Shown one piece after another: positions 2,808 through 18,312 of a stretch of 64,000 nucleotides of DNA (within the stretch, counting starts at the first letter, position 1; each line of letters begins with the position of its first letter). The notes beneath the pieces were generated by a model that searched no databases, was not told the DNA's origin, and saw only the letters and a program-made list of their open reading frames with translations. The translations under genes were made by a program, and so were the position numbers. The stretch comes from an uncultured Planctomycetota bacterium. GTDB lineage: Bacteria; Planctomycetota; Brocadiia; CAIUPP01. Where the stretch lies: positions 1 through 64,000 of the forward strand of contig CAIUPP010000100.1 of assembly GCA_903901045.1 (NCBI GenBank). The letters are read 5' to 3'.

Positions 2808-5800
2808 ATGCAGCGGCAAAGGTTATCAGTTGTTGTAGCTGTCACGGCAGCTTTGACCCTGGGAGCGATTCAGTTCCCCCTTCAAGCCCAGCAGGGTGTG
2901 CCGACGATGCGAGGCGATGCCGCAGCCGCCATCGCGGCCAGACAGCAGAGGCGCATCACTCCGGCCGATCGCGCCGCCGCTGCGCGCAAGCTCCTTCCGG
3001 GCATGTACGCGGGGCAGGCTGCGCCGGGACCCGGAGGCACGCCGAACTTCTTCGGTCCCATCGGCAACTGGGCCTTCACCCCCAGCCCCACGCTCGACCC
3101 GGTGACGGGCGTCATCTCCGGCGGTCTGCACAAGTTCGTTGACCAACTGCCCGGGCTCGGCTCCGCCAATGCGAACCTCCGCGGACAGTACATTCCCGTC
3201 GCCATCCCCGACCAGTCCACGTTCCAGAACTGCGATTACTACGAAATCGCCGTTAAGGATTACTCCGAGAAGCTGCATGCGGACCTGCCCGCCACGATGC
3301 TCCGGGGGTACTACCAGAAGAACACCAGCGACCTCACCGTGAAGACCAGCCAGTACCTCGGCCCCCTCATCGTCGCCCACAAGAACCGCCCGGTGCGAAT
3401 CAAGTTCGTCAACGAACTGGGAGTGGGGGACCTGGGCAACCTGCTCATTCCGGTGGACACCAGCGTCATGGGCGCGGGCATGGGGCCCGACGGCATGAAC
3501 CTCTTCACCCAGAACCGCGCGAACATCCATCTGCACGGCGGCAACACCCCGTGGATCAGCGACGGCACCCCGCAGCAGTGGATCACCCCCGCGAATGAGA
3601 ACACCACTATCTATACCAAGGGGGTCGGCTTCCAGAACGTTCCCGACATGGTCGGCCTCGGCAAGCTCATCCCGAATCCCACTCCCACCGACGGGGTGGG
3701 GACGTACTACTTTCCGAACCAGCAGAGCAGCCGCCTGTTGTTCTATCACGACCACTGCTATGGCACGACGCGCCTGAACGTCTACTCCGGCGAGGCCGCG
3801 GGCTACCTCGTCACCGACCAGGTCGAGGAAGACCTGATCTCCGGCACCAACGTCTCGCTCGTCAATCCGAATCTGCGCAAGGTCATTCCCGGCACACCGT
3901 TGCCGGACGTCTATCACTGGGGCATCCCGCTCATCATTCAGGATAAGACGTTCGTGGACGCCTCCCGCATCGCCTCCCAGGACCCCACTTGGAACTGGGG
4001 CACGACCCCTCCGACCCCCAACAGCGGCGACCTCTGGTTCCCGCACGTCTACATGCCGAACCAGAACCCGAACGATATCAGCGGCGCGAACTCCGTGGGG
4101 CGCTGGGACTATGGCCCCTGGTTCTGGCCTCCGCTGACCCCCGCCGCGGGGCTCATCCATGGCGAGAAGCTGCTGCCCGACGGGACCCGCACCCCCGGCA
4201 CGCCCAACCCGTCGCTCGTCCCCGAAGCGTTCATGGACACTCCGCTGGTGAACGGCTGCGCCTACCCGGTGCTGCCCGTCGCGCGCACGGCCTACCGCTT
4301 CCGCATTCTCAACGCCTGCAACGACCGCTTCCTTAATCTGCAACTCTACTATGCTGACACCGGCGGCGGCGGGTCCGGCGCGACCGGCGTCGCGACGATT
4401 ACCGGCGTCGTCAACAGCCTCACGGTGCTGACCGGCGGCGCAGGCTACACCTCCGCCCCGACGGTCACTTTCACAGGCGGCAATCCAACCACGCCCGCCA
4501 CCGCCTCGGCCATCGTTGCCGGCGGCGTTGTGACCGGCATCACCCTGACCAGCGGCGGAGCCGGATACACCTCCGCCCCGACGATCGGCTTCAACGGCGG
4601 CGGCGCGACGACCGCCGCCACGGCTGGCGCGACCATCACGAACGTCGTGAGCGCCGTCAATATCAGCGCGGGCGGCGCCAACTACCTCTCCGCGCCCAAC
4701 GTCTACTTCATCGGCGGAGGCGGTTCGGGCGCGATGGCTTCAACGACCGTCGCCGGCGGCGTTGTCACCGGCGTCACGGTGGCGTACGGCGGCAGCGGCT
4801 ACGTCGCGGCCCCCAAGGTGCTGATCGGCAGTTCGCTGGAAGTGAAGATGGTCCCCGCCGTTCCCACGCCCACCTGGCCGGCGACCTGGCCGACCGACGG
4901 CAGGGTCGGCGGCGTTCCGGACCCGGCCACTTCAGGCCCCGATATGATCCAGATCGGCACCGAGGGAGGATTCCTGCCGTTGCCGGCGATCATCCCCGCA
5001 ACCCCGGTCGGGTACGAGTACAACCGCAGGAACATCGTCGTCCTGAACGTCAGCACGCACGCCCTCTTCCTCGGCCCGGCGGAGCGCGCTGACATCATCG
5101 TGGACTTCTCCCAAGTCCCAGCCTCGGCGGATGTGACCAACATCATCCTCTACAATGACGCCCCCGCGCCGGTCCCGGCGTTCGATGGGCGCAACGACTA
5201 CTACACCGGGGATCCGGACCAATCCGTTACGGGCGATCCGGCCACGGGGGGCGGGACGGGCGGCGCGCCCTCGACGCTCCCGGGTTATGGCCCGAACACC
5301 CGCACCATTATGGAGTTCCGGGTGGTTGCCGGCGTCCCGGCCGCGACCGCATTCGACCTCCCCAGCTTGCAGACCATTCTGCCGGCTGCGTTTGCCGCAT
5401 CCCAGGATGCGCCGATCATTCCGCAGACGACGTACCCCGCTCCCTACACGGCCGCAACGGACACCTACTCGCGGATTGAAGACACCTCCCTCTCCTTCAC
5501 CGCGCCCGGGCCGCAGCCGGTCCGGAGCATTACGTTGAAGTCCGGCGGCGCAGGATATTCCTCCGCGCCGACGGTCGGCTTCACTGCCGCCGGCGGCTCC
5601 GGCGCTGCGGCGACCGCCACGATCACCGCGGTCGTCAACGCCATCCAGGTCACCAATCCCGGCTCGGGTTACATTACCACGCCGCTGGTCAGCATCGCCG
5701 GTGGCGGAGGCACGGGCGCCACGGCCACGGCGGTGATCTCCGGCGTGGTCAACGGCGTCACGATCAACAGCGGCGGAACCAACTACACCTCCGCTCCCGC

Positions 5801-8138
5801 GGTCGCTTTCGTGGGCGGTGGGGCGGCGACGGCGGCCACGGGCGTTGCCTCGCTCATAGGCCCGGTCGGCTCCATCGCCGTCAACTCGCCCGGCAGCGGC
5901 TACACCAGCGCGCCCACCGTCCGCTTCACCGGGGGCGGGGGAACCGGAGCCACGGCCACAGCCGTCATCTCCGGATCGGTCGCTTCCGTCAACGTGACGG
6001 GGGCGGGCCGCAACTACACCGGCGCCCCCACCGTCGGCTTCACAGGCGGCGGCGGATCGGGCGCGGCGGCCACGGCCGTCATCTCCGGCGGCAGGGTGAC
6101 CGCTATTAATGTGACGGCTGGCGGGACGGGTTACACCTCCTCTCCGCAGGTCAGCTTGACCGGCGGGGGCGGGTCAGGCGCGTCCGGCTCGGCGGCGATC
6201 AACCGCGGGGTGACCTCAATCACCGTCGCGCGCGGCGGCAGCGGCTACACTTCCGCGCCTGCCATCAGCTTTACGGGAGGCAACGGCTCCGGCGCGGCGG
6301 CGACGGCGGTCATCGTCGGCTCCGTCAATGCCGTCCAAGTCACCAGCGGCGGGGCCGGTTACAGTTCCGCCCCCTCCGTTCAGTTCACCGGCGGCAACGG
6401 AAGCGGCGCAGCGGCGACGGCCGCCATTTCCCCCTCCGGCGTTTCCTCCATCGCGATCACGAACCCCGGCAGCGGCTTCACTTCGGCCCCGCTGGTGGCG
6501 ATCAGCGGCGGCGGCGGGACCGGCGCGACGGCGTCGGCGACGATTCTGGGCATTGTGAAGAGCCTCACGCTGACTGCCGGCGGCTCGGGCTACACGGCCA
6601 ACCCGGCCGTCACCTTCACCGGCGGCGGCGCGACCACTCCGGCGACGGCCACCGCAACCGTTTCGCAAGTGATGGAAATGCAACCCAAGACGATCCAGGA
6701 GTTGTTCGAGTTGAATTACGGCCGAATGAACGCCACCCTCGGCGTGGAGCTTCCCTTCACGAACTTCAACACGCAGACTACCATCCCGCTGGGTTATCGC
6801 GACCCCACGACGGAGCTCCTCAAGGATGGGGAGACGCAGATATGGAAGATCACTCACAACGGGGTGGATACGCACGCGATTCACTTCCACCTGTTCAACG
6901 TGCAATTGATCAACCGCGTCGGCTGGGACGGGATGATCACCCCGCCCGAGCCGAATGAACTGGGCTGGAAGGAAACCGTCCGGATGAACCCGCTGCAGGA
7001 TGCCATTGTGGCCATGCGGGCCAATAAGCCGGATCTCCCCTGGCAGATTCCGGACAGTTGGCGCTCCCCGGACACGACGATGCCGGCCGGGGCGACCATT
7101 TCCGTGACGGACCCGGTCACCGGCAACGCCATGGACATCTCCAATGCGCCGGTTAGTTTCGGGTGGGAGTACGTCTGGCACTGCCACCTGCTGGGCCATG
7201 AAGAGAACGACATGATGCGCGCCATGAGCCTTCAGGTCAATCCTACCCCGCCGGTCTTGCTCGGGGCCCTGGGCGCGCCCGCACAGGTGGACCTGAGTTG
7301 GACGGGGACCGGAAGCAACGTGACCAGCTTCCAGGTTCGCCGCGCCCCGGTGGTGAATGGCACGGTCGGCACGTATTCCACCATCTCGTCGCCGGGCGCC
7401 GGCGTGACCAGCTATGCCGACAACAGTGTGACCCTCGGCAACATTTACAGCTACGAGGTAATCGCGGTGAACGGCCTGCCCACCTCGCACGGCTGGTACC
7501 AGTCGGCTCCCTCGAACGCCGTGCGCCTCCTCGTGGCGGTGCCCGCCGCGCCTACGAACCTGGCCGCCGTCGCGTCGGCCCTGAGCACGAACCTGCCGAC
7601 GGTGACGCTCACCTGGATTGACAACTCCGTCAACCTGACCGGTTTCACGATTCAGCGATCCACGAACGCCAACTTCACGGCGAACCTGGCGACGTTCGCG
7701 GTCGCCGCGAATATCACGACGTTCCTCGATAACACGATTGCCGTCACGCCGACAAAATATTTCTACCGGGTATGCGCTTTCAATGTGCTGGGCAACTCGG
7801 GCTGGGCCACGACGAACGTCACAACCTCCGGCCAGCTTCCGGCCGCGCCCACGAACCTGACGGTGAACCCGGCAAGCGTCACCCGGACTTCCGTCACGCT
7901 CAACTGGGTGTTCAGCGCCGTCGGCGGCGCAGCGCCCACCGGCTTCGTCATCCAGCGCGCGACGGATGCCGCCTTCACCACCGGCCTTGTGACCGCCACG
8001 GTCAACACCCCGACGCTGACCTCCTACGTGCGCAGCGGGCTGTCGCGCAGGACGACCTATTACTTCCGTGTTGCCGCGACGAACGCCTCCGGCAACAGCG
8101 CACTCAGCAATGTCGTCACGGCGACGACGCTGCCGTAA
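2808..8138 (+). CDS. Giant secreted multicopper oxidase with Gly-rich repeats and FN3 domains
   Basis: This 1776-aa protein starts at the ATG at 2808, six bases after GGAGG, and has a signal peptide ending near LQAQQG. Copper ligands are complete for a laccase-type enzyme: HLH (241-243), HDH (314-316), HxxHxH (1356-1361) and HCHxxxHxxxxM (1458-1469). The cupredoxin domains are interrupted by two blocks of about 36-residue repeats with the core GGxGYTSAPTVxFTGG: four units at about 519-674 and ten at about 904-1285. Three fibronectin type III domains follow to the end. Size and layout recall the very large oxidases linked to Mn(II) oxidation such as MofA. The substrate is inferred only. The export route beyond Sec could be the neighbouring type II system. 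Confidence 0.92.
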   Translation: MQRQRLSVVVAVTAALTLGAIQFPLQAQQGVPTMRGDAAAAIAARQQRRITPADRAAAARKLLPGMYAGQAAPGPGGTPNFFGPIGNWAFTPSPTLDPVTGVISGGLHKFVDQLPGLGSANANLRGQYIPVAIPDQSTFQNCDYYEIAVKDYSEKLHADLPATMLRGYYQKNTSDLTVKTSQYLGPLIVAHKNRPVRIKFVNELGVGDLGNLLIPVDTSVMGAGMGPDGMNLFTQNRANIHLHGGNTPWISDGTPQQWITPANENTTIYTKGVGFQNVPDMVGLGKLIPNPTPTDGVGTYYFPNQQSSRLLFYHDHCYGTTRLNVYSGEAAGYLVTDQVEEDLISGTNVSLVNPNLRKVIPGTPLPDVYHWGIPLIIQDKTFVDASRIASQDPTWNWGTTPPTPNSGDLWFPHVYMPNQNPNDISGANSVGRWDYGPWFWPPLTPAAGLIHGEKLLPDGTRTPGTPNPSLVPEAFMDTPLVNGCAYPVLPVARTAYRFRILNACNDRFLNLQLYYADTGGGGSGATGVATITGVVNSLTVLTGGAGYTSAPTVTFTGGNPTTPATASAIVAGGVVTGITLTSGGAGYTSAPTIGFNGGGATTAATAGATITNVVSAVNISAGGANYLSAPNVYFIGGGGSGAMASTTVAGGVVTGVTVAYGGSGYVAAPKVLIGSSLEVKMVPAVPTPTWPATWPTDGRVGGVPDPATSGPDMIQIGTEGGFLPLPAIIPATPVGYEYNRRNIVVLNVSTHALFLGPAERADIIVDFSQVPASADVTNIILYNDAPAPVPAFDGRNDYYTGDPDQSVTGDPATGGGTGGAPSTLPGYGPNTRTIMEFRVVAGVPAATAFDLPSLQTILPAAFAASQDAPIIPQTTYPAPYTAATDTYSRIEDTSLSFTAPGPQPVRSITLKSGGAGYSSAPTVGFTAAGGSGAAATATITAVVNAIQVTNPGSGYITTPLVSIAGGGGTGATATAVISGVVNGVTINSGGTNYTSAPAVAFVGGGAATAATGVASLIGPVGSIAVNSPGSGYTSAPTVRFTGGGGTGATATAVISGSVASVNVTGAGRNYTGAPTVGFTGGGGSGAAATAVISGGRVTAINVTAGGTGYTSSPQVSLTGGGGSGASGSAAINRGVTSITVARGGSGYTSAPAISFTGGNGSGAAATAVIVGSVNAVQVTSGGAGYSSAPSVQFTGGNGSGAAATAAISPSGVSSIAITNPGSGFTSAPLVAISGGGGTGATASATILGIVKSLTLTAGGSGYTANPAVTFTGGGATTPATATATVSQVMEMQPKTIQELFELNYGRMNATLGVELPFTNFNTQTTIPLGYRDPTTELLKDGETQIWKITHNGVDTHAIHFHLFNVQLINRVGWDGMITPPEPNELGWKETVRMNPLQDAIVAMRANKPDLPWQIPDSWRSPDTTMPAGATISVTDPVTGNAMDISNAPVSFGWEYVWHCHLLGHEENDMMRAMSLQVNPTPPVLLGALGAPAQVDLSWTGTGSNVTSFQVRRAPVVNGTVGTYSTISSPGAGVTSYADNSVTLGNIYSYEVIAVNGLPTSHGWYQSAPSNAVRLLVAVPAAPTNLAAVASALSTNLPTVTLTWIDNSVNLTGFTIQRSTNANFTANLATFAVAANITTFLDNTIAVTPTKYFYRVCAFNVLGNSGWATTNVTTSGQLPAAPTNLTVNPASVTRTSVTLNWVFSAVGGAAPTGFVIQRATDAAFTTGLVTATVNTPTLTSYVRSGLSRRTTYYFRVAATNASGNSALSNVVTATTLP
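4362..4830 (+). repeat. Protein repeat block 1 inside the multicopper oxidase
   Basis: Four tandem coding repeats centre on GGAGYTSAPTVTF, GGAGYTSAPTIGF, GGANYLSAPNVYF and GGSGYVAAPKVLI, each followed by a Gly/Ala/Thr-rich stretch and a short Val-rich strand. They sit between the HDH motif and the rest of the second cupredoxin region. Confidence 0.85.
5518..6662 (+). repeat. Protein repeat block 2 inside the multicopper oxidase
   Basis: Ten tandem coding repeats have the cores GGAGYSSAP, PGSGYITTP, GGTNYTSAP, PGSGYTSAP, AGRNYTGAP, GGTGYTSSP, GGSGYTSAP, GGAGYSSAP, PGSGFTSAP and GGSGYTANP. Each unit reads as two or three short beta strands plus a Gly-rich turn. The block ends just before the C-terminal copper-binding cupredoxin domain. 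Confidence 0.85.
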
Positions 8139-8382: not shown

Positions 8383-10098
8383 CTACACGGCATCCATCTG
8401 GGTGACGCGCAGCACCTCGGCGGCGGTGGTGAGGCCGGCGATGGCTTTCTGCGCCCCGTCCATGCGCAGCGTCTTCAGCCCGCGCTCGATCGCGCTGCGC
8501 TTGATCTCCGTCGCGTTGCGCCGCTCCATGATCTGGACGCGCGTCTCCTCGTCGATGGCGAACAACTCGTAGATGCCCGTCCGCCCGAAGTAGCCGGTCT
8601 GGAAGCACTCCTTGCATCCGCGCCCGCGATAGAGTACTCCATTGATCAGCTCTTCGCGCGCCACCCCCAGTTCGCGCAGCGGCTCCGCCTCCGGGATGAG
8701 CGATTCCTTGCAGTGCGGGCAGATCACGCGCACGAGGCGCTGCGCGATCACCGCGATCATCGCCGAGGCGACCAGGTACGGCTCGATCCCCAGGTCCAGC
8801 AAGCGCGTCAGCGATCCCGCCGAGTCGTTCGTGTGCAGGGTGCTGAACACCAGGTGCCCCGTGAGGGCGGCCTGGATGGCGATGCGCGCCGTCTCCAGGT
8901 CGCGCACTTCGCCCACCATGATGACGTCCGGGTCCTGCCGCAGCACCGAGCGCAGTCCGCTGGCGAAGGTCATTCCCTTCTGGTCCGTCACCTGGATCTG
9001 GCTGATGCCATGCAGGCGGTATTCGATCGGGTCCTCGATGGTGATGCAGTTGGTCTGCGAGGAGTTGATCTTGTTGAGCATCCCGTAGAGCGTCGTCGTC
9101 TTGCCCGAGCCGGTCGGGCCGGTGACGAAGATCACCCCGTGCGTGAACTGGATCACGCGCAGCAGCTTGGCCATGTCGTCGGGCAGCAGCCCTACGTCCT
9201 CCAGGCCGAACAGCCGCGTCCCCTTGTCCAGCAGCCGCAGCACGGCGCGCTCGCCGAAGCAGGCAGGGACGACCGACATGCGCAGGTCGATCTCGCGGTC
9301 GCGCAGCGTCATCGTCGCGCGACCGTCCTGGGGGGTGCGCTTCTCGGCGATGTCCATGTTCCCCATCACCTTGATGCGCGAGATCATGGAATCCTGCAGC
9401 GCCTTCGGGAAGGTCAGCCGGTCGTAAAGGATGCCATCGATGCGGAAGCGCACCAGCACATCCTCCTCGCGCGGCTGAATGTGCACGTCGCTGGCGCGCA
9501 CCTGGAACGCTTCGTACAGGATCTGCCGGACCAGTTGGATCACGGGGGCCTTGTCGCCGATGTCCAGCAGGTCCTCCGAGCCTATCGGCTGCACGGAGTT
9601 GATCTGCGGCCCCTCGTCGCTGAGTTGCTCCATCACGTTGTCGAGGATGCCCCCCAGGCGCGACTTGTTCTCATACGCGCGGTCGATCAGCGAGACGATC
9701 TGGATGGTGGGGGCCAGCACGGGCTCCACCTCGACCCCCAGCAGCATCGCGAGGTCGTCCAGGGGGTTGGTTTCGAGCGCCGCGGCGGTGGCCACCTCCA
9801 GCCGCCCGTCGCGCCGGCCGACCGCCACGACATTGTGCCGGCGGACGAAGTGAAGCGGGACGCGCTCCAGGAATTCCTGCGGCACCTCGACCCCCGCGAG
9901 GCTGTCGCGATAAGGGAGGCCCAGCGCCTGGCCCATCGCGCGCAGCAACTGCGGCTCGGTCGCCAGTTCCCGCTCCAGCAGCTCCTTCTCCAGCGGGCGC
10001 TGCGCCTCGCGCGCGGCGTGGAGCGCCGTCTCGAACTGCGCATCGCTGAGCAGCGCTTCGCCGATCAGTATCTGTTTCAGGCTCGATTCAAGGCTCAT
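8383..10098 (-). CDS. gspE: Type II secretion ATPase GspE
   Basis: This 571-aa cytoplasmic hexameric ATPase powers pseudopilus assembly. An N-terminal GspE/PilB domain (about 1-150) precedes the ATPase core. Walker A reads GPTGSGKTT (near 330), and the Walker B region includes VIMVGEVRD with ALTGHLVFSTLHTND after it. A zinc-binding cysteine tetrad (CPHC near 475 and CKEC further on, before FGRTGIYEL) is present, as in secretion ATPases of this type. The start overlaps the end of gspD by 11 nt, so the two are translationally coupled. It is the last gene of the minus-strand gspD-gspE unit. Confidence 0.96.
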   Translation of the reverse strand: MSLESSLKQILIGEALLSDAQFETALHAAREAQRPLEKELLERELATEPQLLRAMGQALGLPYRDSLAGVEVPQEFLERVPLHFVRRHNVVAVGRRDGRLEVATAAALETNPLDDLAMLLGVEVEPVLAPTIQIVSLIDRAYENKSRLGGILDNVMEQLSDEGPQINSVQPIGSEDLLDIGDKAPVIQLVRQILYEAFQVRASDVHIQPREEDVLVRFRIDGILYDRLTFPKALQDSMISRIKVMGNMDIAEKRTPQDGRATMTLRDREIDLRMSVVPACFGERAVLRLLDKGTRLFGLEDVGLLPDDMAKLLRVIQFTHGVIFVTGPTGSGKTTTLYGMLNKINSSQTNCITIEDPIEYRLHGISQIQVTDQKGMTFASGLRSVLRQDPDVIMVGEVRDLETARIAIQAALTGHLVFSTLHTNDSAGSLTRLLDLGIEPYLVASAMIAVIAQRLVRVICPHCKESLIPEAEPLRELGVAREELINGVLYRGRGCKECFQTGYFGRTGIYELFAIDEETRVQIMERRNATEIKRSAIERGLKTLRMDGAQKAIAGLTTAAEVLRVTQMDAV

Positions 10099-12310
10099 GG
10101 ATTCCCGCTCCGGAGGCGGCCGGGCTTTCGAACAAGTCCTGCTTCACCGGCAACTGCTTGTACTCCGGCCGCGTCAGGTTCTCTTCGGTGATCACCTGGC
10201 GGGAGGCGGCGCTGCTGAGACCTTTCAGGTCCGAGAAATCCTCCGCGCGAGCGATGCGCGTCTTGATGAAGACATACAGCGTCGCCTGGCTGGCGTCGCT
10301 GGTGTCGCGGCGGAAGAGCTGGCCCAGCAGCGGGATGCTCCCCAGGATCGGCACCTGCGAGCGGCTGTTGCTGTTGTCCGCCCGGTTCAGGCCGCCGATC
10401 AGCACGGTGGAGTTGTCCGGGATCGTCACCTTGGAGGTGACTTCGTCGGTGTGGCGCGCCGGCGGGGCGCTGTCGGAGGCGGCGGTCCCCGTGAAGGCCG
10501 AGAGCTTCACGTGAATATCCAGTTGCAGGTAATCCGCCTCGCTGATGTGCGGCGTGACATCCAGATAGGTGCCCGCCGTTTCATACCCGCCGAAGGAACT
10601 CGTGGTGGTGTTCGAGCCGACCGCGTTGATCTGCGTGTAAGGCTCCTCCGCCTCGCTCACGAAACTGGCCGCTTCATTGTCGTTGACCAGCGCGCGCGGG
10701 CGCGAGACGATCCGGCCGTTCCCCTTCTGCTCCATGAGCTTCACGATGGCCTGAATGTCGCCTCCCTTGATCACGAAGCCGGTCAGACCGCTGGATGCCG
10801 ATACGGCCGCCGTCTTGGCCGCGAAGTCGATCTTGCTCAGGCCGAAGTTCGTCCCCCCGCGCACCGCGCCGCGCTGGAGGTTCAGCAACTCCACCCCGAT
10901 GTCCAAGGCCTGCGAGCGGCTCACCTCGACCACCAGCGCCTCGATCATCACCTGCGGGCGGCGCATGTCGAGCTGTTCGATAATCGCCGCCAGCAACGCC
11001 TGCTCGCGCGGCGGACCCACCAGGATCAGCGAGTTGGTATGCTTATTCGCGATGGCCTGCACCTGGCTGCCCACCAGGCCGGTCATCGTCCCGCCGCCGG
11101 CGGCCGCGATTGCGGCGGACGAATCCGTCGCCGCAGCGGCGGTTGCAGGCGCTGCCGCGGCATAGGCGGGCGTCCCCGTGGTCGCGCGCGGTGTCGTTCC
11201 GCTCGGGGCGGGGGTGGAGGTGCTGGGGTGGCCGGAAGCCGTCGTCGTCTCCATCCCGCCGCCCATGATCTGCTGGACCGTCGCCAGCATGTCCTCGGCC
11301 TTGGTGTTCTTCAGCCGGATGATGCGGTAGGGGCGCTCCGCCTCCGGCACCGGCACGTCCAACTGCTCCGCCAGCGAAGCGATAGCCTCCATGTCGGCAG
11401 GCAGCGCCACCACCACCAGCGCGTTCAGCCGCGCGTCGCTATCGATGGCAAACCCCGCGCGCCCCTGCGCCGACGAGTCCATGCCGCTGCGCGCCCGCAG
11501 ATAAGCGGTGATCTTCGGCGCATACTCATCGGCGCGGATGTACTTGAGCGGGATGAGCTTCAGCGGCGGCTGATCCGCCGTCACGTCCAGCACCTCGATC
11601 ATCTTCAGCATGCGCGCGACGTTCGGCGCGTAATCGGTCAGCACCAGCATCCGCTGCCCGGGCACGGCGAAGATTCTTGACCCGGCCGCCAGTCCGGCCC
11701 CGCCCGCGGCGGGACGTCCCGGTTGCGCCGCGCGCGGCGCCGCCACGCCGGACATGATTCCCTGAAGCGAGTTCATCACCGTCGCGGCGTCCGTGTTCTT
11801 CAGCGCCACCACCTGCGTGACGATCACATCGCGGTCCGGCAGCTTGGCCGTCTCGTTCGGACCGTAGAACGGCGTGGGCTTCGTTCCCGCGACGCTGGCC
11901 GACACCACCTTGACGAACCCCTCCGGCGAGGGGGAGAGCGCCCACCCCTTGAATTCCAGGATGGACTCCAGAATGCTCTGGAGCGCCGTCACTGAAACTT
12001 CCTTCGGCGCGCGCAGGCTCACTGTCCCGGTGAGCGTTTCGTCGTAAATGTAATTCGTCTTCGTCCGAGCCGCCACATAGTCCACGATCAGCTTGATATC
12101 CACCTGATCGCCGAAATTCAAAATAACTTTCTGGTCACCCGACGCGGCCGGAACGACGGGTGCGGCGGGGGGCTTCATATCCTTTTGGAGCGGTGGGGCC
12201 GCTGCGGGCGGCTCCTGCGCCGGTGCCGCGCCCGCGAACAGTCCGAAGATCAATATTGTGTAGAGGATATGAACCAACGCGCTGCTGAAGCGATTCCCAA
12301 GGATCATCAT
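10088..12310 (-). CDS. gspD: Type II secretion secretin GspD
   Basis: This 740-aa outer-membrane secretin forms the exit channel. It begins with a hydrophobic signal peptide ending near GAAPAQ. A short Pro/Ala linker, an N0 domain (VDIKLIVDYVAARTKTNYIYD) and several N1-N3 ring domains with the LKNTxAxxM pattern follow. The N3 region contains a low-complexity Ala/Thr/Pro insertion (about 375-420). The C-terminal secretin core has VPILGSIPLLGQLFRR and VFIKTRI. I start at the double ATG at 12310/12307 behind GGGAG. The upstream in-frame ATG at 12346 lacks a ribosome site. The gene diverges from gspC. Confidence 0.95.
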   Translation of the reverse strand: MMILGNRFSSALVHILYTILIFGLFAGAAPAQEPPAAAPPLQKDMKPPAAPVVPAASGDQKVILNFGDQVDIKLIVDYVAARTKTNYIYDETLTGTVSLRAPKEVSVTALQSILESILEFKGWALSPSPEGFVKVVSASVAGTKPTPFYGPNETAKLPDRDVIVTQVVALKNTDAATVMNSLQGIMSGVAAPRAAQPGRPAAGGAGLAAGSRIFAVPGQRMLVLTDYAPNVARMLKMIEVLDVTADQPPLKLIPLKYIRADEYAPKITAYLRARSGMDSSAQGRAGFAIDSDARLNALVVVALPADMEAIASLAEQLDVPVPEAERPYRIIRLKNTKAEDMLATVQQIMGGGMETTTASGHPSTSTPAPSGTTPRATTGTPAYAAAAPATAAAATDSSAAIAAAGGGTMTGLVGSQVQAIANKHTNSLILVGPPREQALLAAIIEQLDMRRPQVMIEALVVEVSRSQALDIGVELLNLQRGAVRGGTNFGLSKIDFAAKTAAVSASSGLTGFVIKGGDIQAIVKLMEQKGNGRIVSRPRALVNDNEAASFVSEAEEPYTQINAVGSNTTTSSFGGYETAGTYLDVTPHISEADYLQLDIHVKLSAFTGTAASDSAPPARHTDEVTSKVTIPDNSTVLIGGLNRADNSNSRSQVPILGSIPLLGQLFRRDTSDASQATLYVFIKTRIARAEDFSDLKGLSSAASRQVITEENLTRPEYKQLPVKQDLFESPAASGAGIHEP

Positions 12311-12341
12311 TCCACTCCCACGGTTCGCCAGGTGCCCAGTT

Positions 12342-12452
12342 TTCACCTATTCGAATATAGGCTGGAATGCGGATGGTGTCAACCACTTATATCGACTGGA
12401 AATACGGAAGGGGGACTTGATTGCCGAGGCGGCAGGTTGTCTAATAGGTGAA
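12342..12452. promoter_or_regulatory. Divergent gspD/gspC control region with 10-bp inverted repeat
   Basis: TTCACCTATT at 12342-12351 is exactly repeated in inverse orientation at 12443-12452. The two copies flank the 166-bp region between the divergent gspD and gspC starts, one close to each gene. This symmetry is what a shared regulator binding both promoters would need. No regulator is identified. Confidence 0.4.
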
Positions 12453-12476
12453 GAGGAATTGCCTCAGGAGTCACGG

Positions 12477-13418
12477 ATGAGAATTGAGTCACTTCGACGC
12501 CCGCTGTGGGTTGCCGGCGCGCTGACGTTTGCCGCGGTGGCGCTGCTGCCGACGCTCTACCTTGTCGAAGGGTGGCGGCACGTGGAAACGCCCGCAGTGC
12601 TCGGGGACGACCTGAGCCGCTTGCAGAGGGCGCAGGCCGTTGCGCTTTTGCGCCCCTCCGACGACGCCGTGATCTGGCGGCGTCTGGGCGGGCGGATCAC
12701 CGTCGCCGCCGTCAAGACCCTTGCCGTCGGCGGCAACGCGGGACTGGAGACGCTGGCCACTTTCTACGAGGAGGACCAGCAGTTCTGCGGCGCGATCCTG
12801 CGCGACCGCGCTCGCCGGCAGTATCTCGTGAAGGTGGGTGAGACGATCCAGGGATGGCGGGTGGCGCGCATCACCACGGAAGGGGTCGCGATCAGCCAGG
12901 GCGGCGCTGAATTCTTCATCAAACTGCCCAGCGCCGCGGTGATGGCCGTGGCCGCGGTGTTGGCGGAGAACCCCGTGGCCGCCGCTCCCGCGCCGCAGGC
13001 CCGCGCTGACGCCGATACTTCTGCGCGCATTCCCGCTGCCGCTCCGCTGGTCGCTTCGCAGAGCGCCGCGCCCGAGGCTCCCCAGGCCGCCGACCCGAAT
13101 GTCGTCAGCCGCGTGCAACTGCAACTCTACGTGAGGCGTCTCGGCAGCATCCTGGCGCAGGGGCAACTCGCGCCGGAACACAACGCGGCGGGAGAAGTGG
13201 TGGGGCTGCGCGTCGCCAAGCTGGATGACAACGCCGTGGCGGCCGCGCGCGGGTTCAAGCAGGGAGACCTCATCCGCGAGGTCTATTCCACCAAGCTGAC
13301 CGACGTTTCCCAGCTACCCATTCTGGCCCGCCAGATATGGGCGGAGAATCCCCCCACGATAACCGTTCTCGTGAACCGCGACGGACAGGATCAGCAGGTC
13401 GTCTACCGGCTTCAATAA
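12477..13418 (+). CDS. gspC: Type II secretion inner-membrane protein GspC
   Basis: This 313-aa protein links the inner-membrane platform to the secretin. One N-terminal membrane helix (about 10-30) precedes the homology region, about 60-150, with the GspC-like pattern GAILRDRARRQYLVKVGETIQGWRV. An Ala/Pro linker and a C-terminal PDZ-like domain follow (about 205-313, GLRVAKLDDNAVAAARGFKQGDLIREV). The start at 12477 follows AGGAG by six bases; an earlier in-frame ATG at 12417 has no site. The orientation is opposite to all other gsp genes here: it converges on gspM and diverges from gspD. Confidence 0.88.
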   Translation: MRIESLRRPLWVAGALTFAAVALLPTLYLVEGWRHVETPAVLGDDLSRLQRAQAVALLRPSDDAVIWRRLGGRITVAAVKTLAVGGNAGLETLATFYEEDQQFCGAILRDRARRQYLVKVGETIQGWRVARITTEGVAISQGGAEFFIKLPSAAVMAVAAVLAENPVAAAPAPQARADADTSARIPAAAPLVASQSAAPEAPQAADPNVVSRVQLQLYVRRLGSILAQGQLAPEHNAAGEVVGLRVAKLDDNAVAAARGFKQGDLIREVYSTKLTDVSQLPILARQIWAENPPTITVLVNRDGQDQQVVYRLQ

Positions 13419-13457: not shown

Positions 13458-13985
13458 CTACTGACCCGAAGCGCGCCGCACCGACAGCATCACCCTCGCC
13501 GACCACCCCTTTCCCTCCCCCAGGGGGGACATCACGATCTCCCGTACCTTCAAGCCGGGGAACTCCCGCTCCGCTGAGGAAAGCATCTCCGTCAACCCCT
13601 GCGAAGAGACCTCCTTCAGGGTGAGCCGCGTTTCCTGCTCGATCAGGTCGGGCCGGTCGGCGGCCGGGTGCGGGTTGTCCATATTGATGCTCAGCGTCTC
13701 TTTGGACATCCCCGCCTTCGAGGCGGCCGCCTCCAGGAACGTGATCAAGTCCTGCGGCGGCTGACTCGTTCCGCGCCCGATCCCCAGGCTGGCGCGCAGC
13801 GTCAGCACGCTCTCCGCGGCGGCGATCTCGCGCGACACCGCATCCGCGTGGCGCGAGAGCGCCAGCTCGGCGCGTTGCAGGCGGCTCCACGCCGCCCACG
13901 TCCAGACCGTCGCCACGAGCGCGGCGGCTCCCAGCAGCAGGGGCCACTTGGCGCTCGGGTCTATCTTCAGCGGCTCACCGGCCAT
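13458..13985 (-). CDS. gspM: GspM-like type II secretion protein
   Basis: This 175-aa bitopic protein has one membrane helix (about 15-36), a coiled-coil stretch rich in Ala/Glu/Arg, and a ferredoxin-like periplasmic tail. Sequence identity to classical GspM is not obvious; the call rests on topology and on position as the last gene of the gspF-to-M run, right after the GspL-like gene. The start at 13985 overlaps the end of that gene by 11 nt, the same overlap length as gspD/gspE. PilO is the alternative name by analogy to type IV pili. The pairing with the GspL-like protein is inferred. Confidence 0.7.
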   Translation of the reverse strand: MAGEPLKIDPSAKWPLLLGAAALVATVWTWAAWSRLQRAELALSRHADAVSREIAAAESVLTLRASLGIGRGTSQPPQDLITFLEAAASKAGMSKETLSINMDNPHPAADRPDLIEQETRLTLKEVSSQGLTEMLSSAEREFPGLKVREIVMSPLGEGKGWSARVMLSVRRASGQ

Positions 13986-15426
13986 AGGGGGCATCCTTTT
14001 TCGGGGTCGCTTCCAGTTCAAAGACCGACTGTCCCCCCTCGTAGCGCAGGTTCCGGGGCGAAACGTTCAGCCCTGTCTGTGCCGCGACGGCGCGGACGAT
14101 CGTCGACGCATCGGAGTGCGACTTCGCGGCCATCTCGATCCGCGCCTGGTCCGGGAGGATTGTCACGGAGCGAATCGTCACCTCGATGGTCGGCGGAATC
14201 GCCCCGAGGATGGTGCGCAGCGTCACCAGCGCCGAGGCGTTCTGCCCCGTCGTCGCCGCGCCGCTGCGCAGGCGGTTCGTCTCCCCGGCCAGCCAGGATT
14301 CCATCTCCGAAGGCATGGACTTCCCAGGCTCGACCTTCTGCCAGACCGATTGCTCCTTGCCGAACAGCGCGTCATCCTGCTGGCGCTCATCCGCGGCGCG
14401 CCACATCATCCCCGTCGTGCCGAGCGCCATCAGGAGCGTCCAGCCCGCCAGGCAGAAGATCAGCGGCGCGCGGATGTGCTCGATCTTCGGGCGGTAACGG
14501 TACTCACCCGAGCGCATGTTCACCGGGAACTGCGCCGATTGAAGGAGCGGCAGCGCCAGCCCCAGCGCCGTCATCCCGTCGCGCAGGAACTCCGGCGTCA
14601 GGTCGCCTTTCAGCTTGTTTCCCTCGCCGGGCGCGAAGGGGGCCGCCGGAATCTCCAGCGCCTTGCCGATCTCTCCGGCCAATTCCGGGCGCGCGTTTCC
14701 GCCGAACAACAACGCGCGTGTGCCCGCGGACGCGTGGGGCGCTGCCGCCAGGAAAAGCCGCAACTCGCGCGCCAGCTTCTCGCTGTAGCGAGCGCGCTGC
14801 TCCGGGGTTGCCTCCGGCAAGTCCGCACCGAACCGCAGAATGCGCGCCGTCACCGGACGCGCGTACTCCACCCAGAGCGCCTTGGCCGAACCGCCTCCCA
14901 GGTCCAGCAGCAGCGTGGGCGTTTCGGGGAGGTTCCCCGTCGCGCTCAGCCCCTCCAGCAGCGCCATGGGTTCCACGCCGAGGCGGTGCGGGGCCACCCC
15001 GGCCTCCTCCAACTGCCGGAGCCATTCCTCCAGCGACGCCTTGCGCGACGCGAACGCCATCACGGTCGTCCCCTCCGTGCTGCTGCGCAAGGGGAAATAT
15101 TCCAGCGCCGCCTCCTCGATGGGGAAGGGGAGGAAGTTCTCCGCCTCGAAGCGCACCACCTTGGCGAGTTGCTCCGGGTTGGTGAACGGCACGGTGATCT
15201 CCCGAACCGCCGTCTCCTGCGCCGGGAGAGCCGCCGCGATCGGCTCCGAGCGCCACCCCGCCCGCGCTAGCAGCCCCGGCAGGAAGCTGAACTGCGCGGC
15301 CCCCTCCGCGTCGCGCGGGATCGCCTCAACGGCGAAGCCCGCCAGCGCGAGGCCGCGCGACGTGCGCTCGACCACCACCGCCTTGGCGAATTTCGTCCCG
15401 ATGTCCAGTCCCGCTGCTCGGCTCAC
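13975..15426 (-). CDS. gspL: GspL/PilM-like inner-membrane platform protein
   Basis: This 483-aa protein combines an actin-like cytoplasmic domain (about 1-315; MSRAAGLDIGTKFAKAVVV at the start and LLLDLGGGSAKALW near 170) with one membrane helix (about 325-345, APLIFCLAGWTLLMALGTTG). A periplasmic ferredoxin-like domain (about 370-483) follows. This is the fold order of GspL or of a PilM-PilN fusion. It normally recruits GspE to the membrane and pairs with GspM. The start is 12 nt from the gspK stop, and its 3' end overlaps gspM. Confidence 0.85.
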   Translation of the reverse strand: MSRAAGLDIGTKFAKAVVVERTSRGLALAGFAVEAIPRDAEGAAQFSFLPGLLARAGWRSEPIAAALPAQETAVREITVPFTNPEQLAKVVRFEAENFLPFPIEEAALEYFPLRSSTEGTTVMAFASRKASLEEWLRQLEEAGVAPHRLGVEPMALLEGLSATGNLPETPTLLLDLGGGSAKALWVEYARPVTARILRFGADLPEATPEQRARYSEKLARELRLFLAAAPHASAGTRALLFGGNARPELAGEIGKALEIPAAPFAPGEGNKLKGDLTPEFLRDGMTALGLALPLLQSAQFPVNMRSGEYRYRPKIEHIRAPLIFCLAGWTLLMALGTTGMMWRAADERQQDDALFGKEQSVWQKVEPGKSMPSEMESWLAGETNRLRSGAATTGQNASALVTLRTILGAIPPTIEVTIRSVTILPDQARIEMAAKSHSDASTIVRAVAAQTGLNVSPRNLRYEGGQSVFELEATPKKDAPYGR

Positions 15427-15438
15427 GCTCGGCTTCTC

Positions 15439-16374
15439 CTATGGCGACCGCCTGCAGAGGCGGATAATCCCTTTCCCGTCGCTTCCCGGGTCCACGACCG
15501 CGTGCGTCACCAGCCGCGATGGCCCGCTGCGCGTCGTCACCGTCACCTGGACGATGCCTCCCGTGAAGGTGAGGCGGCCCGCCAGCGGCTCCGCCGCGGG
15601 CCCGTCCAGGCCGAGCACCTGCACCACCTCGGCGATCGATTCGAACTCCTTCGCCGTCCGGTACTTGATCAGCACGTCCGCTTTGCCCGGCGCCACGTCC
15701 GCCAGCACCGCATCGAGCACCTCGACCGGCGCTGTGTTCACGTTGACGCCGCCGCTCCCCCAGCAGGTAACGTACCCGGAAAGCCCCTGCGATTCCACTC
15801 CTGCCGCGCCCGCGCCGCCGTAAAGCAGCGCATCCGTCACCCCCTCCACCTCGCGCAACTCCTCCAGCAGCGTGATCGCCTGCGGAACATCTCCAGCGCC
15901 TCCCGTCCCGGAGCGCGTCGCGATGAAGTCCGCTATCGACGTCGCGAGGGCCTCATCGACCTTCAGCGCCGACGCCAGGGCAGTCCAAGCCTGGCGCGTC
16001 CAGTCCTGGGTCGCCGCGTTGGGCGACGCCAATCCGTTAAGGTTCAGCTTGCCGCTCTCATCCTCGAACAACGCATCCGTCAGCCCATCCCCCAGCGCCA
16101 GACCGCGCACCCCCTCGGCCAGCAACTGCTTGCGCTCCGTCTCGGTGAACTCCTTCGACGAAAGCCGCGCGCAGACCACCCGCAGAATTCCATCGGTCGC
16201 CGCCACATGCTGCGCGTCGCCGCTGAAGTTCAGCGAAGCGCGCTGCGCGTACCAGGAGTACATCGCCAGGTCTCCCACCACCAGCCCCAGCAGCGCCACC
16301 ACCAGCAGCACGATGATCAGCGCGAACCCGCGCCTTGCCGCCCTGTGCCTGAATCCATGGAGAAAGCGCTTCAT
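15439..16374 (-). CDS. gspK: Minor pseudopilin GspK
   Basis: This 311-aa protein is the largest minor pseudopilin of the tip complex. The prepilin site reads RRG-FALIIVLLVVALLG. The Glu normally at position 5 is replaced by a hydrophobic residue, as is typical of GspK. A long globular domain follows, with the KLNLNGL motif near 130 and VNVNTAPVEVL near 230 that are characteristic of the family. The ATG at 16374 overlaps the gspJ stop as ATGA. A longer frame reaching 16515 lies inside gspJ and is rejected. Confidence 0.92.
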   Translation of the reverse strand: MKRFLHGFRHRAARRGFALIIVLLVVALLGLVVGDLAMYSWYAQRASLNFSGDAQHVAATDGILRVVCARLSSKEFTETERKQLLAEGVRGLALGDGLTDALFEDESGKLNLNGLASPNAATQDWTRQAWTALASALKVDEALATSIADFIATRSGTGGAGDVPQAITLLEELREVEGVTDALLYGGAGAAGVESQGLSGYVTCWGSGGVNVNTAPVEVLDAVLADVAPGKADVLIKYRTAKEFESIAEVVQVLGLDGPAAEPLAGRLTFTGGIVQVTVTTRSGPSRLVTHAVVDPGSDGKGIIRLCRRSP

Positions 16375-17006
16375 TGGCCCCCTCCGGTTCCCTGGTTCAT
16401 GGAGGCGGGAATCCAGACCGTCGCCTGCACCGGTTCGGATGCGGCCCCTTCCACCGGGGCCAGTTCCAGCGTGAAGCGCACCCCCTGGGCGACCTGCCCC
16501 TGCGACTCCGGCCACTCCGTCGCCCAGACGGCGCCGTTGAAGAACGCCACCCGGCAGGAGCGCAGCCGCCGAAAGACCGGCTCAAAGACAGGCTCTTCCT
16601 GCGTTCCGTTGGACCAGGGCGTCTGCGAGCGCATCAAATCCACCAGGTCGCGCTCCTCCGCGTTCGGGTCCAGCCGATAGCTGACCTGGAAAATGCCTCC
16701 TCCCTCGCTGCGCGCGAGCGGATTCGATACGGTGACGAAGGTGAGCAACGCGCCCTCCGGCGGCGGGAGGGCTGTGCCGGTGAAGACGCCCGCCGCTTCG
16801 CCCGTCACCAGCGTTCCGCGCAGTTCCTCCCGCAGCAGCCAGGCGAGCGATTGAGCCGAGGCGGTCGCATCGCTCACGGCCTCGACGTGCTCTCGCGCGG
16901 AGATCGTGGAGAAGAGCATTGCATACGCCGCCGTGAACAGCGCCGAGAGAATCGCCAGCGCCAGCAGCACCTCCAGCAGCGTGAATCCCGCGCGGCGCTC
17001 TCTCAT
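16371..17006 (-). CDS. gspJ: Minor pseudopilin GspJ
   Basis: This 211-aa protein has a class III prepilin leader, MRERRAG-FTLLEVLLALAILSALF, with Gly at -1 and Glu at +5. A beta-rich globular domain of GspJ size follows. GspJ forms the pseudopilus tip with GspI and GspK. It overlaps gspI upstream and gspK downstream by 4 nt each (ATGA), showing tight translational coupling. Confidence 0.9.
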   Translation of the reverse strand: MRERRAGFTLLEVLLALAILSALFTAAYAMLFSTISAREHVEAVSDATASAQSLAWLLREELRGTLVTGEAAGVFTGTALPPPEGALLTFVTVSNPLARSEGGGIFQVSYRLDPNAEERDLVDLMRSQTPWSNGTQEEPVFEPVFRRLRSCRVAFFNGAVWATEWPESQGQVAQGVRFTLELAPVEGAASEPVQATVWIPASMNQGTGGGQ

Positions 17007-17392
17007 GGCCTGCCCCCCGGCGCGAGGAGCGTCTCCACGGCCAGCGTCTCATCTCCGGTGGAAGCCGACGCCCCGGCGGGAAAGCGCATTTCAACGCGGA
17101 CGCGGCGCGCCAGTCCCAGCGGCCCCAGCGGGGTCTGCGTCAGGACGTAGCGGCATGTGAAACCGGGATAGGCATCATAGTGGCGCTGTATCGGCAGGGA
17201 GACGTCGGGGTTCAGCGCCAACTCCGCCAGCGCCTCGGAGGCGAGCATCGTGGCGATTTGCCGGTTGCGCGCGGTCGTGGCGTTGCGCACCGCGTTGGAG
17301 CGGATCGCCAGCAGCGTCGCCGCCGCGCCGGCCAGGATAGCCAGCGCCAGCAGCGTCTCGATCAGCGTGAAGCCGTCACGGCGTCGCCGCAT
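17003..17392 (-). CDS. gspI: Minor pseudopilin GspI
   Basis: This 129-aa protein starts with MRRRRDG-FTLIETLLALAILAGAA, a canonical prepilin cleavage site with Glu+5. A short globular domain typical of GspI follows, including NRQIATMLASEALAEL just after the helix. Its start lies 17 nt inside the gspH coding region. It is placed as the second tip-complex pseudopilin in the usual H-I-J-K order. Confidence 0.9.
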   Translation of the reverse strand: MRRRRDGFTLIETLLALAILAGAAATLLAIRSNAVRNATTARNRQIATMLASEALAELALNPDVSLPIQRHYDAYPGFTCRYVLTQTPLGPLGLARRVRVEMRFPAGASASTGDETLAVETLLAPGGRP

Positions 17393-17933
17393 GGGGCGGC
17401 TCCTTCCGCGAATCGTACAGGTTCACCTGCGCGCCCAGCGGCATCACCTCCACCGTCATCTCCGCTCCATCGGCGTCGCTCAGGTGGATCCAGTGTCCTT
17501 CGCACGCCCCCAGGTACGTGAAGGGGATCGTCGCCGTCGGCGCGCCGGCGCTCTGGCCGTTCAGGAACGACACATCCTGAAAACGCACCCCGTCCGGCAG
17601 CGACTGCATTCGGAAGCGCTCCGCGGGGGGCTCCAGGCGCGCCGGGATCGCCCCGGCGCCGTTCGCCGTCACCACCCAGTATTGCCCCTGATCCACATCG
17701 TAGCGGATCGCCATCGGCCGGCCCGCGCCGACGCTCTCGCTGCGCACCCAGGCGACGGTGGAGGCCAGTTCGCGCGCCGCCGCCTTGATGCGGAAGGAGG
17801 GGAGCATCGTGTCCAGCCTCGCCGAGACCAGCGCCGCCATCAGCCCCAGGATGCCCAGCACCAGCAGCACCTCCAGCAGCGTGAAGCCGGCCGGCTCAGG
17901 GCGCGCTCGTGCGGTAATTCGTGATGTCGGCAT
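17376..17933 (-). CDS. gspH: Minor pseudopilin GspH
   Basis: This 185-aa protein has a prepilin leader that is longer than usual: MPTSRITARARPEPAG before FTLLEVLLVLGILGLMAAL. I choose the ATG at 17933, five bases after GAGGA, which makes the gene overlap the gspG 3' end by 38 nt. Extending to 18035 would read through gspG out of frame and gives an implausible leader. The globular part contains VDQGQYWVV and VRFQDVSFL, in keeping with GspH/FimT-type minor pseudopilins. Confidence 0.85.
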   Translation of the reverse strand: MPTSRITARARPEPAGFTLLEVLLVLGILGLMAALVSARLDTMLPSFRIKAAARELASTVAWVRSESVGAGRPMAIRYDVDQGQYWVVTANGAGAIPARLEPPAERFRMQSLPDGVRFQDVSFLNGQSAGAPTATIPFTYLGACEGHWIHLSDADGAEMTVEVMPLGAQVNLYDSRKEPPHAATP

Positions 17934-18312
17934 TCTCATCCTCGCCGCCCGGGCGGCCATCCGCGCCGAATGACCGGAGTTCGTACGACTGCCGCGCGCC
18001 GGGCATGACGTACTCGAAATCATTCCCCCAGCCATCCTTCGGCACGTCCTTCAGGTAGCCGTCCCGGGGCCACTTCTTGATGTTTGCCGGCTGGGTCACC
18101 AGGTCTTCCATGCGCGCCGGGTAGAAGCCGTTGTCCATCTTGAACATGTCCACCGCGTTCTCGAGTTCGCGCATCTGCATCTTGGTGGTCTTGATGCGCG
18201 CCTCATCCATGCGGTTCATGATCTGAGGCACCACCAGCGCCGCGATCAACCCGATGATGGCGATCACCACCAGCATTTCGACGAGCGTAAAAGCCCTGCG
18301 ATGTCTGTTCAT
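17896..18312 (-). CDS. gspG: Major pseudopilin GspG
   Basis: This 138-aa protein is the main pseudopilus subunit. The leader is MNRHRRA-FTLVEMLVVIAIIG: position -1 is Ala rather than the usual Gly, while Glu+5 is kept. The C-terminal half has the GspG hallmarks PKDGWGNDFEYVMPG and a calcium-site-like GADGRPGGEDENADI. The processing peptidase GspO is not in this window. It is the second gene of the operon, 10 nt after gspF. Confidence 0.95.
   Translation of the reverse strand: MNRHRRAFTLVEMLVVIAIIGLIAALVVPQIMNRMDEARIKTTKMQMRELENAVDMFKMDNGFYPARMEDLVTQPANIKKWPRDGYLKDVPKDGWGNDFEYVMPGARQSYELRSFGADGRPGGEDENADITNYRTSAP

Follow-up and report, generated by a model that had tools for sequence, protein, structure and literature searches.

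We refer to the whole 64,000-nt stretch of DNA analysed here, from an uncultured Planctomycetota bacterium, as the window. It carries at positions 2808 to 8138 a gene for a large multicopper oxidase, which in the ORF listing is a single open frame without breaks from an ATG at 2808 to a stop codon at 8138. The oxidase, its copper motifs and repeat blocks, and the type II secretion genes beside it are as follows.

2808..8138, + strand: probably secreted multicopper oxidase, 1,776 aa (ORF; Pfam Cu-oxidase_2, Cu-oxidase_3 and fn3; best PDB sequence matches of the core, CotA laccases, E 1e-33)
2808..2891, + strand: signal-peptide-like N-terminus MQRQRLSVVVAVTAALTLGAIQFPLQAQ (judged by eye from the sequence, no predictor)
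3528..3539, + strand: copper motif 1, HLHG (H241, H243; sequence and CotA alignment)
3747..3755, + strand: copper motif 2, HDH (H314, H316; sequence)
4359..4832, + strand: repeat block 1, 4 units, residues 518-675, in place of a beta-turn in cupredoxin domain 2
5502..6674, + strand: repeat block 2, 10 units, residues about 899-1289, in place of a beta-turn at the start of cupredoxin domain 3
6873..6890, + strand: copper motif 3, HAIHFH (H1356, H1359, H1361; sequence)
7179..7214, + strand: copper motif 4, HCHLLGHEENDM (H1458, C1459, H1460, H1464, M1469; sequence)
7242..8135, + strand: fibronectin type III (FN3) tail (Pfam fn3, E 2e-15; tandem-FN3 PDB matches over residues 1589-1771)
8383..10098, - strand: GspE-like type II secretion ATPase (Pfam T2SSE; TIGR02533 just below cut-off)
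10088..12346, - strand: GspD-like secretin (Pfam Secretin; TIGR02517 just below cut-off)
12417..13418, + strand: GspC-like protein (NF041515, E 8e-14, under cut-off)
13975..15426, - strand: GspL/PilM-like protein (profile matches)
15439..18035, - strand: minor pseudopilins GspK, GspJ and GspH (15439-16515, 16371-17006 and 17376-18035; NCBIfam, below cut-off)

All 12 ligands of a blue multicopper oxidase were found in the usual order, with M1469 as the axial type 1 ligand. The full laccase-type ligand set claimed by the original prediction is thus present in the sequence, and the FN3 domains that it placed after the oxidase were found by Pfam at the C-terminus, where one domain is clear and there are probably three altogether. 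The same genome encodes a paralog (L004:862-5202) in whose arrays 2 and 4 units were detected. In this paralog the axial type 1 position is occupied by Phe instead of Met (HCHMLSHEENDFM); in other laccases an axial Phe accompanies a higher redox potential.

The type II secretion genes start 245 bp downstream of the oxidase gene and are convergent to it, and from this gene neighbourhood the oxidase is probably exported by the adjacent system. Just upstream, on the opposite strand, positions 146-2254 encode a LuxR type response regulator and a histidine kinase, a pair whose position makes it a possible regulator of the oxidase.

Two repeat blocks inside the oxidase

The glycine-rich repeat, which we call the GY repeat, has a unit length of 38-40 aa in both blocks, and the 4 and 10 units counted previously were both upheld. 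A tandem-repeat scan of the window DNA gave no match in the blocks, which indicates that the units have diverged. None of the 549 array residues of the window protein is D, E, H or C, and in the 47 repeat-bearing relatives described below D and E make up 2.2% of the arrays vs 9.0% of the cores. The lack of these residues and the low charge of the arrays make it less likely that the arrays coordinate metal or bind minerals through carboxylates; carboxylate binding of minerals or Ca was rejected, since the 549 residues hold neither D nor E.

Relatives and insert sites

A genome scan gave 79 loci from many bacterial and archaeal phyla, and 89 core sequences were compared, including the window protein, its paralog L004 and two tandem genes of another genome of the same phylum (G086). 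Repeats were present in 47 of the 89 and absent from 42. The layout is thus family-wide and no peculiarity of this one protein, and the proposed search for the same repeat inside other enzymes found it in these 47 oxidases. Relatives from Geobacteraceae (L025, L035) and Burkholderiales (L038) could be aligned across the entire core.

Inserts occur at few positions. One is the N-terminal region, two lie in domain 2 (site 1 within it and another at its end), and the fourth, site 2, lies where domain 3 begins. L029, the closest relative in sequence (70% core identity), is array-free. At site 1 it reads NLQLYYVDPNDPNATEV, vs NLQLYYAD-array-LEV in the window protein, and at site 2 it reads TFTPTGGTPITVQMLPKAIQELF, vs SFTAPG-array-MEMQPKTIQELF; since it has short turns exactly where the window protein has arrays, we concluded that the arrays replace beta-turns. 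Short turns are found at both sites in array-free relatives generally. The earlier claim that the blocks lie inside the oxidase fold was thus borne out, and the sites were narrowed to beta-turns in domains 2 and 3. The tree has 13 switches in array presence for site 1 and 7 for site 2.

That the gene could be an assembly artefact or chimera had been named at the outset as what would overturn the finding. The source genome is indeed a draft of 154 contigs; however, the frame is unbroken, GC3 is equal in the repeat blocks and the core, a relative from a different phylum (L020) has an identical 4+10 layout, and the arrays of the other repeat-bearing relatives lie in many cases at matching sites. 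We regard an artefact as having practically no chance of being correct, the array-bearing relatives having excluded it.

The oxidase family is scarce in Planctomycetota (3 of 392 genomes), which suggests that it has spread horizontally. No plasmid carriage of the family was found, and viral contigs yielded one distant oxidase, free of array-length inserts, plus repeat matches only.

Predicted structure

The AlphaFold2 model of a relative with 4+4 units (L022) had a pLDDT of 75.6 and a pTM of 0.74, with most of the site 2 array at 82-91. Superposed on CotA, it gave a Z score of 29.6 and a deviation of 2.2 A over 467 of 496 residues. The match means that the copper core is able to assemble with both blocks outside it. 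Structure prediction, the check first proposed for this protein, hence placed the blocks outside the cupredoxin core of this relative, and by extension from its model the window protein would likewise assemble three cupredoxins with the blocks looped out.

The 10-unit block of the window protein modelled alone reached only low confidence (pLDDT 61). A Foldseek search with this model gave no significant match (best E 0.77, viral 0.04), and VIA-align matched it to parallel beta-helix proteins such as SRRP (Z 15.8, 3.9 A, 275 residues); given the low confidence of the model, this resemblance may reflect merely a common arrangement. Sequence search found no solved structure for the GY repeat. BurrH was considered as its structural match and rejected: it was a match by profile only, to a helical repeat, and was deemed spurious.

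Even numbers of repeat units

Of the 64 unit totals counted per site, 61 were 2, 4, 6, 8 or 10. Among the three odd totals, two show a decayed second unit, and the third, in L038, is badly diverged. The binomial p for evenness is 5e-15, a figure that ignores common descent; the rule was noticed and counted in one and the same data set. The tree requires a minimum of 20 changes in array size for site 1 and 10 for site 2, so evenness has been reached repeatedly. Pairs as old fixed units were rejected, as units of the same parity are not more alike (14 of 29 arrays, p = 1). With no sequence alternation between units, the even rule is based on counts alone.

A closed two-unit module with adjacent ends would account for even totals at several oxidase sites. 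We therefore put forward, tentatively and at rather less than even odds, that the GY repeat is such a module, pairs of which could be inserted into any host beta-turn without disturbance, and that nature uses it as a general insertion cassette to display enzymes on cell surfaces or anchor them there; it would be akin to the repeats of cyanophage virions.

The repeat outside this oxidase

Pfam has no family for the GY repeat. PHROGs profiles matched it to cyanophage structural proteins (701, 708, 19630 and 460; E down to 6e-82), and tblastn also found it in cyanophages. By profile, the repeat regions of T4-like cyanophages consist of the same repeat as the oxidase arrays. They differ in belonging to virion structural proteins and in having 1, 2, 4, 5 or 7 detected units, with no clear even rule. 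Strong repeat matches in the genome of the window are confined to the two oxidase paralogs; across the phylum they occur in 9 of 294 genomes, where they lie in oxidases and in large proteins that in some cases have Calx-beta or cadherin-like domains.

Other modules at the insert sites

In a relative from Coriobacteriia (L067), three CWB2 domains (PF04122; Pfam E 1e-45) replace the repeat at site 1, and its sisters L064, L086 and L094 carry three CWB2 domains at the C-terminus. CWB2 motifs are cell-wall anchors that bind the polymer PSII (PMC8881574). This shows that site 1 tolerates an attachment module and is used in that way in one lineage. The CWB2 module shares its position in the core with the repeat arrays but is unrelated to the GY repeat and absent from the window protein.

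Further arrangements were seen among the relatives. The oxidase at L067:7043-8137 is fused at its C-terminus to a di-haem cytochrome c peroxidase (MauG-like) domain. At L091:4669-6009, about four DUF5719-like repeat copies occupy the N-terminal site and represent a third kind of module. The tandem oxidase pair at L019:5187-13309 has a sorting-signal-like tail, consisting of Cys-Gly-Leu-Leu-Gly followed by hydrophobic and basic stretches, which is missing from the window protein.

Possible role of the arrays

The reading that we prefer, with a probability of roughly 0.55, is that the window protein is an extracellular oxidase with the CotA fold and of the OmpB/MofA type, exported by the adjacent type II system, and that its arrays and FN3 tail act jointly to hold the enzyme at the cell envelope or matrix or to space it there. 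The three-cupredoxin core would form the type 1 site and the trinuclear cluster, and two outer beta-turns would carry even-numbered GY arrays folded outside the core. Once the protein is outside the cell and held or spaced in this way, its core would transfer electrons to O2 from a reductant, whether Fe(II), Mn(II) or organic. Since both ends of an array are joined to a single hairpin turn, units could be gained or lost, seemingly in pairs, with the copper sites undisturbed.

By analogy with the CWB2 domains of L067, the GY repeat could likewise be an attachment module. The original prediction had proposed tethering to minerals or a matrix. Attachment is backed by the three CWB2 domains in the same loop of L067, but the mineral part is opposed by the residue composition of the arrays.

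The arrays might instead be inert spacers or surface shields, that is, neutral glycine-rich beta modules that have no partner and serve for protease protection or for distance from the envelope. Consistent with this, the arrays are less charged than the cores in 47 of 47 repeat-bearing proteins and almost uncharged in all of them, they vary freely in number and position and are dispensed with by 42 of the 89 relatives, and the same repeat occurs on giant cyanophage structural proteins. On the other hand, the inserts recur at few places and not at every surface loop, and in L067 a genuine cell-wall anchor occupies the site 1 loop, although that is one relative and CWB2 is unrelated to the repeat. 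On balance, we consider a purely passive role somewhat unlikely.

It is still less probable, in our judgement, that the arrays shape substrate access, with the block 2 hairpin bordering the type 1 copper and gating large or solid substrates such as minerals. Site 2 belongs to the first hairpin of domain 3 and precedes CotA residue 393 in the alignment; this hairpin is presumably near the CotA substrate pocket. However, 71 of the 89 relatives lack an array there, and arrays are also found at the N-terminus and other places.

Array trimming could tell whether cell-surface position governs activity on solids. Protein engineers could also make use of a repeat that has no known fold and enters enzymes in even numbers.

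Comparison with known oxidases

The best core match by both sequence and structure is the CotA laccase of Bacillus, with which the window protein shares its ligand set. CotA differs in being a spore-coat protein of about 510 aa in which both insert sites are short turns. Some Mn(II)-oxidase activity is seen with the purified enzyme (PMC3618234). MnxG has its copper motifs in reversed order (PMC3618234); the motifs of the window protein are not reversed, and identity with MnxG was rejected.

Classed by published descriptions, the window protein agrees in part with the extracellular multicopper oxidases of the OmpB/MofA type. OmpB of Geobacter sulfurreducens is reported to be an outer-membrane multicopper protein that is required for reducing insoluble Fe(III) oxides, is exported by an atypical type II system and is a homologue of MofA (PMC5566968); in MofA, copper motifs A and B are N-terminal and C and D are C-terminal (PMC3618234). 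The window protein shares with both the character of a large, in its case probably secreted, oxidase in which motifs A and B precede C and D. Its C-terminal FN3 matches that of OmpB, and type II secretion genes adjoin its gene. EXXE motifs of the OmpB type occur at residues 1298 (ELFE) and 1381 (EPNE), a kind of motif that commonly occurs by chance.

In Leptothrix discophora, mofA adjoins the prolyl isomerase gene mofB, and in the genome of the window an FKBP prolyl isomerase gene adjoins the paralog L004; none is found among the immediate neighbours of the window gene. A mofB-like gene is missing from the Geobacter ompB cluster (PMC5566968), so it does not define the family. FKBP genes were found close to 11 homologs with arrays and 3 without (Fisher p 0.04), but a link between prolyl isomerase and arrays was rejected, as the association was gone under tree control.

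The papers searched contain no description of internal repeat arrays in OmpB or MofA, although the 1,661 aa of MofA leave room for them, and the open-access literature searched describes neither even-numbered arrays at hairpins nor their exchange for a cell-wall anchor. The enzyme itself is thus of a known kind, and the modular array design appears undescribed. OmpB and MofA are large extracellular multicopper oxidases and candidates for metal redox cycling; in the window protein, much of the mass beyond the copper domains consists of interchangeable surface modules that occupy fixed hairpins in a laccase core which is itself intact.
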